A stretch of 64,000 bases of DNA from the NCBI GenBank assembly GCA_030604405.1, contig JAUVVY010000001.1, positions 220,899 to 284,898 of the forward strand, written 5' to 3'. The translations under genes were made by a program, and so were the position numbers. The notes beneath the pieces are model-generated. The model was not told the origin of the DNA. It did no database searches and saw only the letters and a program-made list of their open reading frames with translations. The DNA is from a bacterium (lineage in GTDB: Bacteria; Armatimonadota; Zipacnadia; Zipacnadales; UBA11051). Every line of letters starts with the position of its first letter. The first letter of the stretch is position 1. Below, piece by piece: positions 14,614 to 15,432 of this stretch.

Positions 14614-15432
14614 ATGCGCTGCCCTTTCTGCAAGGACAATATCAGGATACAGGGAAGGTTCTGCCCGCGATGCGGCGAGCAGATATTCGGCCTGCCTGTT
14701 AGCCGGCCCGGTCGCCAGCCCGGCGCGCCAGGCTCTACTCCACCCGACGCGGCGCCGCCCTCGCCCGGACTCCCACGGCCGGTTACTCCACCCACTCAGT
14801 CGGGTCCCGCAGCGCCGCCGGACACAGTTTTCCTGGATCTGGATTTCGGAGCCCAAGAGCCTGCGACAGCCCCTGGTGGCGGTGCTGCCGGCGTACAAGT
14901 GGCTGACGACGAGTACGTAGGCAAGATCTGCCCATATTGCCGCTTCCCGATTAAGTCCGCCGAGGAGATCGTCGTCTGCCCGCAGTGCGAGGTGCCACAC
15001 CACCTCGACTGCTGGCGGGAAAACGAGGGCTGCACCACCTACGGTTGCACCGGCGGTACGCCTGCCGCCCAGCCGCTAACGCGCGGCGGCCCGCTGCCAT
15101 CACAAACCGCTTCGCGTCACGGGCCCCAGTCTCCGCCTTTGACCCCGGACGCACGGCGCCGGGTGGAGGCCACCTTCGCCGAGATGCAGGTGCGCGAACT
15201 CAATGCCCGAGCCACCAACGCCCTCGTGCTGTCGGTGCTGGGCATCCTGTGCTTTTTGCCGGCAATGATCGGCTTCTTCATGGCTATCGCGGTGCTGAGT
15301 AAAGTCGCCCAGAATGCCGCATTTGCCAATCATCCCGCCAAAGGCCGTGCCATCGCCGCAATAGTCATCGGCGTATTCTGGCTCTTCGTATGGGGCTCCG
15401 TCATGCTGTCAGGCCTCGGCGGTATGGGCTAG
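14614..15432 (+). CDS. Zinc-ribbon + prokaryotic RING-like finger + C-terminal two-TM (DUF4190-like) protein; candidate E3
   Basis: N-terminal CPFC..CPRCG; CPYCRFPIKSAEEIVVCPQCEVPHHLDCWRENEGCTTYGC (RING/treble-clef spacing); C-terminal NALVLSVLGILCFLPAMIGFFMAIAVLSK...AIAAIVIGVFWLFVW. Confidence 0.82.
   Translation: MRCPFCKDNIRIQGRFCPRCGEQIFGLPVSRPGRQPGAPGSTPPDAAPPSPGLPRPVTPPTQSGPAAPPDTVFLDLDFGAQEPATAPGGGAAGVQVADDEYVGKICPYCRFPIKSAEEIVVCPQCEVPHHLDCWRENEGCTTYGCTGGTPAAQPLTRGGPLPSQTASRHGPQSPPLTPDARRRVEATFAEMQVRELNARATNALVLSVLGILCFLPAMIGFFMAIAVLSKVAQNAAFANHPAKGRAIAAIVIGVFWLFVWGSVMLSGLGGMG

Follow-up and report, generated by a model that had tools for sequence, protein, structure and literature searches.

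A probable membrane-anchored RING-type E3-like factor in a bacterial YukD-type ubiquitin-like conjugation operon

An operon of an Armatimonadota bacterium encodes a nearly complete conjugation system for a YukD-type ubiquitin-like protein (Ubl), and its last gene specifies a RING protein that probably acts as the membrane-anchored, RING-type E3-like factor of that system. The assignment is carried by a match to the Prok-RING_1 family, by membrane segments, by a conserved operon and by co-occurrence with an E2 enzyme across related genomes. The operon lies in a stretch of 64,000 nucleotides, hereafter the window (contig JAUVVY010000001.1, positions 220,899 to 284,898 of the forward strand; assembly GCA_030604405.1). 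The organism belongs to Zipacnadia, a class of Armatimonadota described in a paper that makes no mention of ubiquitin (PMC10290634).

Organization of the operon

All genes of the operon lie on the + strand. The first encodes E2a (9126..9626), a second E2 of the UBC fold that has a WSPS loop and no tail motif, and is followed by the gene for an HtrA-like serine protease (9636..10664) with an N-terminal hydrophobic signal, a transmembrane (TM) segment at residues 278-296, no detected PDZ domain and a tail that ends in DLSDIDIDLH. The 89-residue YukD-like Ubl (10677..10946) precedes an E1-like enzyme of the ThiF family (10958..12184), which carries the N-terminal motif PIDVDLHEDR. A HicB/HicA toxin-antitoxin pair (12338..12839) that is probably not part of the Ubl system sits between the E1 and JAB genes; the sister contig L061 has an intact HicB and a truncated HicA. 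The JAB/JAMM peptidase (12852..13970, with a true start likely at about 12906) contains one TM segment, a LysM domain and the motif QIDLH near its N-terminus. It is followed by E2b (13974..14513), which has an HPN motif and Cys96. Its model shows a UBC domain followed by a disordered C-terminal tail, and this tail ends in NDLGIELL, preceded by VDIDL. The RING gene (14614..15432) comes last. Pfam matches above cut-off comprise YukD, ThiF, JAB and, twice, UQ_con.

The Ubl ends in PEITAG (window 10929-10946), and this C-terminus is conserved across phyla. The frames of some relatives extend past PEITAG (by GRF, GS or GNAF) and, if these extensions are real, would need trimming. In addition, one related locus (L096, G042:C203) shows weak YukD-like and E2 matches in open frames that are equally long (317 aa), and the two may form a natural fusion of Ubl and E2.

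Architecture of the RING protein

The RING protein (272 aa) is composed of a zinc ribbon (residues 2-24), a Pro-rich linker with an acidic-hydrophobic motif at residues about 71-79, a Prok-RING_1 domain (101-145) and a DUF4190-like tail with two TM segments (198-270). An earlier sequence-only reading had drawn the same outline, including a finger spaced CPYC-x12-CPQC-x3-HH-x2-CW-x5-C-x4-C, and the translation bears this spacing out exactly: C106-P-Y-C109-x12-C122-P-Q-C125-x3-H129-H130-x2-C133-W134-x5-C140-x4-C145. The finger core, residues 106-145, is encoded at 14929..15048 (+ strand), and in Pfam residues 101-145 match Prok-RING_1 (PF14446) with a score of 47.6 bits (cut-off 29.1; E 1.6e-12); the protein is thus a member of this family, and it is the only Prok-RING_1 match in the host genome (4.4-Mb assembly, 96 contigs). 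H130 is invariant and H129 is replaced by Leu in some relatives; therefore, the second His is the ligand and the set is C4HC3. All eight ligands are nearly invariant across relatives, and the finger is the best-conserved stretch of the protein. The nearest named match, from Candidatus Zipacnadia bacterium, shares 83% identity.

The flanking domains held up in part. The ribbon cysteines (C3, C6, C17 and C20) are invariant in 20 relatives, although the DZR match (E 3e-4) falls under the Pfam cut-off. Similarly, the two TM segments at the C-terminus (about 198-233 and 241-270) recur in nearly all full-length relatives, whereas the DUF4190 score of 23.5 bits is below the cut-off of 35. The start codon is supported by the conservation of the N-terminal MRCP among relatives, and the gene directly follows that of E2b, as had been read from the sequence, with a gap of 100 bp.

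Linkage and distribution among relatives

Genomic linkage in relatives had been proposed as a test of the E3 assignment, and the outcome that would have counted against it, a lack of such linkage, was not observed. Among 61 related genomes, 28 contain both an E2 and a RING scored above the profile cut-off, 30 contain neither, one contains the RING only and two contain the E2 only (Fisher p 6e-14, a value that ignores shared ancestry). When both genes lie on one contig they are within about 1 kb of each other in 23 of the 25 pairs; one of the other two comes from a genome (G003) with a split E2b, which still adjoins the RING gene. The order HtrA-Ubl-E1-JAB-(JAB)-E2-RING-(JAB) is conserved in relatives. 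Of the 50 RINGs found in a scan seeded with the RING, 42 have a Ubl, E1, E2 or JAB gene as a neighbor. These loci span at least six phyla, the groups represented being Armatimonadota, Acidobacteriota, Verrucomicrobiota together with Kiritimatiellae, Actinomycetota, a deltaproteobacterium and Ignavibacteria. Four of the eight RINGs that stand without such neighbors (L103, L123, L126 and L138) come from contigs that measure between 1.4 and 6.1 kb.

The RING of Ignavibacteria is grouped with the Ubl and E1. The notion that these genomes lack an E2 was rejected, because the remaining components are found elsewhere in them (JAB in 8/8; E2 in 7/8, two of these under the cut-off). In seven cases (L125, L128, L133, L135, L137, L142 and L144), the Ubl-E1-RING locus is split from a site at which JAB and E2 lie close together.

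Because the E2-RING linkage holds in relatives and Ubl-system genes flank most RINGs, an E3-like role together with E2b is the best reading of these data. The sequence-only reading had named E2a and/or E2b as partners of a membrane E3. E2a, which has no tail, occurs mainly in the family of the window itself. Where a family possesses a single E2, this enzyme is of the E2b type and is encoded next to the RING; this arrangement makes E2b the likely partner rather than E2a.

Structural relationship to eukaryotic RING ligases

The predicted structure of the RING protein has a mean pLDDT of 77.9, with values of roughly 90 and higher for the ribbon, finger and hairpin and low values in the linkers. 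In a Foldseek search of the PDB, RING E3 domains occupy all of the first 17 places; several derive from membrane RINGs, and the best are RING-H2 E3s such as RNF13, RMR1, RNF38 and RNF12. Probabilities reach 1.00, but the E-values exceed 0.05, no PDB match attains 0.001 or better, and TM-scores (on target) are mostly 0.45 to 0.63; a direct sequence search of the PDB with the RING returned nothing significant. Chains of PHD fingers also appear as weak matches, and the C4HC3 order of ligands is that of PHD fingers, so that the domain might be conceived of as a PHD-like or other treble-clef reader whose function is unrelated to the Ubl and whose linkage arose by chance. We regard this as very improbable, given that RING-H2 folds outrank PHD folds and that linkage and co-occurrence extend over many genomes and phyla.

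Eukaryotic RINGs offer four reference positions for comparison: a hydrophobic E2-contact residue, a helix Trp, the Pro of the last-pair CPxC and a basic linchpin. These positions were compared in 67 RINGs by sequence only. The hydrophobic residue that lies between the first and second ligands is retained (Y108 here; Tyr, Phe, Val, Ile or Leu in 66/67). The helix Trp position, C6+4, is occupied by Asn137 here and by Asn in 65/67, and the Trp of this protein is at C6+1 instead. The Pro after C7 is absent from the last pair, which reads CTTYGC in this RING, and the linchpin position, C8+1, is Thr146 here and basic in 23/67. Three of the four classical features for E2 contact or activation are, as far as alignment can tell, unconserved in these RINGs. 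The proposal of a membrane E3 for the E2s thus stands as regards the Prok-RING_1 finger, the anchor and the association with E2, E1, Ubl and JAB, and is weakened as regards the textbook contacts, without which the protein may nevertheless function in an E3-like manner.

A motif shared by components of the Armatimonadota system

A stretch of alternating hydrophobic and acidic residues that follows an acidic run was first noticed in the RING linker (VFLDLDF); it had escaped the sequence-only reading. Comparable stretches are found in the window at the HtrA end (DLSDIDIDLH), the E2b end (NDLGIELL and VDIDL), the E1 start (PIDVDLHEDRY) and in JAB (QIDLH). Among relatives, HtrA tails retain LSD[IV]DI.L and E2b tails retain xI[EQD]L at the extreme C-terminus.

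A fixed pattern matched 27/39 E2s (1.8 expected from shuffled sequences), 13/37 RINGs (0.6), 8/21 HtrAs (1.7), 13/25 E1s (4.2), 16/68 JABs (4.3) and 0/20 Ubls; because the pattern was noticed before counting, the counts in the first-seen families are not fully independent. The rate per 1000 aa is 6.8 in E2 versus 0.33 in 262 neighboring genes, and the C-terminal form occurs in none of 450 genes sampled from the host's own genome (550 kb). A profile built from the HtrA and E2b tails, with percentiles of neighbor genes as thresholds, placed 18/20 HtrAs above the 99th percentile, and 30/67 JABs (shuffled mean 2.2) and 10/35 RINGs (0.4) above the 95th. Since most of its E1 hits are located within the ThiF domain, the E1 counts were disregarded as evidence; support for the N-terminal E1 motif comes from reading of the E1 termini. 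Within the window, scores are strong for HtrA and E2b and marginal, at the 94th percentile, for E1 and JAB; the RING linker is missed, so that the E1 and RING sites are found by the looser pattern only. A pan-phylum distribution of the motif was rejected, since hits outside Armatimonadota are chance-like.

There is an appreciable possibility that the motif reflects the mere acidic composition of tails, or that it works as a degron or as a tag for targeting. The tails are indeed acidic and predicted to be disordered, and the absence of the motif from other phyla and the low profile scores of E1, JAB and RING in the window point the same way; however, the excess over shuffled sequences in E2 and RING, the ranking of the HtrA tails above neighboring genes and the absence of the C-terminal form from the sampled genes speak against such readings. 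The motif probably brings HtrA, E1, JAB, E2b and RING together through a common partner; a plausible candidate is the Ubl, the one conserved component devoid of it. SUMO-interacting motifs (SIMs) consist of a short hydrophobic stretch with acidic borders that adds a strand to the Ubl (PMC8636563), and the HtrA and E2b tails, as well as the E1 and JAB termini in relatives, fit this pattern; the likeness is suggestive only. The HtrA tail should face the cytosol, together with E1, E2 and RING, as its TM segment is followed by an ARR stretch (positive-inside rule).

FHA-domain and TPR proteins encoded downstream of related operons carry the motif as well (L077:5394-6509, L085:1475-2890, L075:3358-4578 and L070:4483-5484), and they may be further members of the system. 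It is tempting to speculate, although we hold this to be somewhat doubtful, that the whole Armatimonadota machine (protease tail, E1, E2b, JABs, RING, FHA and TPR proteins) is wired by one SIM-like motif that binds the YukD-type Ubl, which would both modify targets and scaffold its own membrane-spanning cascade.

The linkage of the operon is equally compatible with a role of the RING protein as a scaffold or adaptor. Through its ribbon, finger and linker, the protein might bind either conjugated Ubl or the complex of E1, E2 and JAB and tether its ligand to the envelope, as a membrane adaptor or receptor and not a ligase. The unconserved E2-activating residues, the membrane hairpin and a linker motif common to other components would suit such a function, as would the RING paralogues outside Ubl operons. 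These paralogues (L099 and L100) have N-terminal hydrophobic segments and a C-terminal RING, and the sequence retrieved around them showed no gene of the Ubl system; not every member of the family need therefore be an E3. On the other hand, the RING itself is the most conserved stretch, its closest folds are E3s and its gene adjoins E2b in most relatives, and we consider the adaptor role rather unlikely.

Comparison with known systems

Proteins of the Prok-RING_1 family (PF14446) were reportedly predicted to be prokaryotic RING E3s by Burroughs, Iyer and Aravind in 2011; the RING as such is therefore not new in kind. The protein described here shares with them the Pfam family and the linkage with E1, E2, JAB and a YukD-like Ubl, as well as the C4HC3 ligands and the long spacing of the last pair that are typical of prokaryotic RINGs (PMC11354881), and may differ in its zinc ribbon, two-TM tail and motif-bearing linker. 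In Caldiarchaeum subterraneum, an operon likewise combines Ub, E1, E2, a small RING (srfp) and the JAMM protease Rpn11, and the RING has been shown to be an E3; mutants of I30, W58 and R69 are described in the same paper (PMC5654768). However, the archaeal RING is of the RING-H2 type, and its Ile, Trp and linchpin Arg are functional, whereas the present RING is C4HC3 and membrane-bound, and the present operon has a YukD-like Ubl ending in AG and extra HtrA and LysM parts.

Bacterial BIL and related E1/E2/JAB defense operons also share E1, JAB and Ubl with this operon, and the PADLOC model BilD matches its E1 (E 2e-8). By contrast to BIL-type operons, the Ubl here is of the YukD type; no PADLOC model is matched by the E2s, Ubl or RING, and no defense system is assigned for the RING or E2s. 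Yeast Nse2, a SUMO E3 of the SP-RING type, has a C-terminal SIM, IDVL, that is partly engaged via its terminal carboxylate (PMC8636563). This IDVL-COOH end resembles the DIELL-COOH and DIDLH-COOH tails described here at the level of pattern, but the motif here is spread over many components.

A model for the system and its implications

From these arrangements we infer that the RING protein would bind E2b, act as a ligase and expose its finger to the cytosol, with substrates close to the envelope. A feasible model may be that the Ubl, once E1 has adenylated the terminal Gly of its PEITAG end, is handed on to E2b, while the C-terminal hairpin keeps the RING at the membrane's inner face. The RING would then bind E2b~Ubl and steer transfer to substrates near the envelope, JAB would reverse the tagging by proteolysis, and the motif on HtrA, E1, JAB, E2b and RING in Armatimonadota would gather the components in a SIM-like manner.

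A bacterial E1/E2/Ubl cascade with a RING has been predicted, and no experimental test of one was found in the literature examined. What is new is the membrane layout and the motif shared by the C-termini of HtrA and E2b, the N-termini of E1 and JAB and the RING linker, the motif being confined to the Armatimonadota version. A compact operon that recurs in several phyla and whose genes are all listed makes it testable whether a true bacterial RING E3 exists. If the common motif on most components is a true docking element, it would constitute a simple, testable rule of assembly, apparently convergent with SUMO-interacting motifs.
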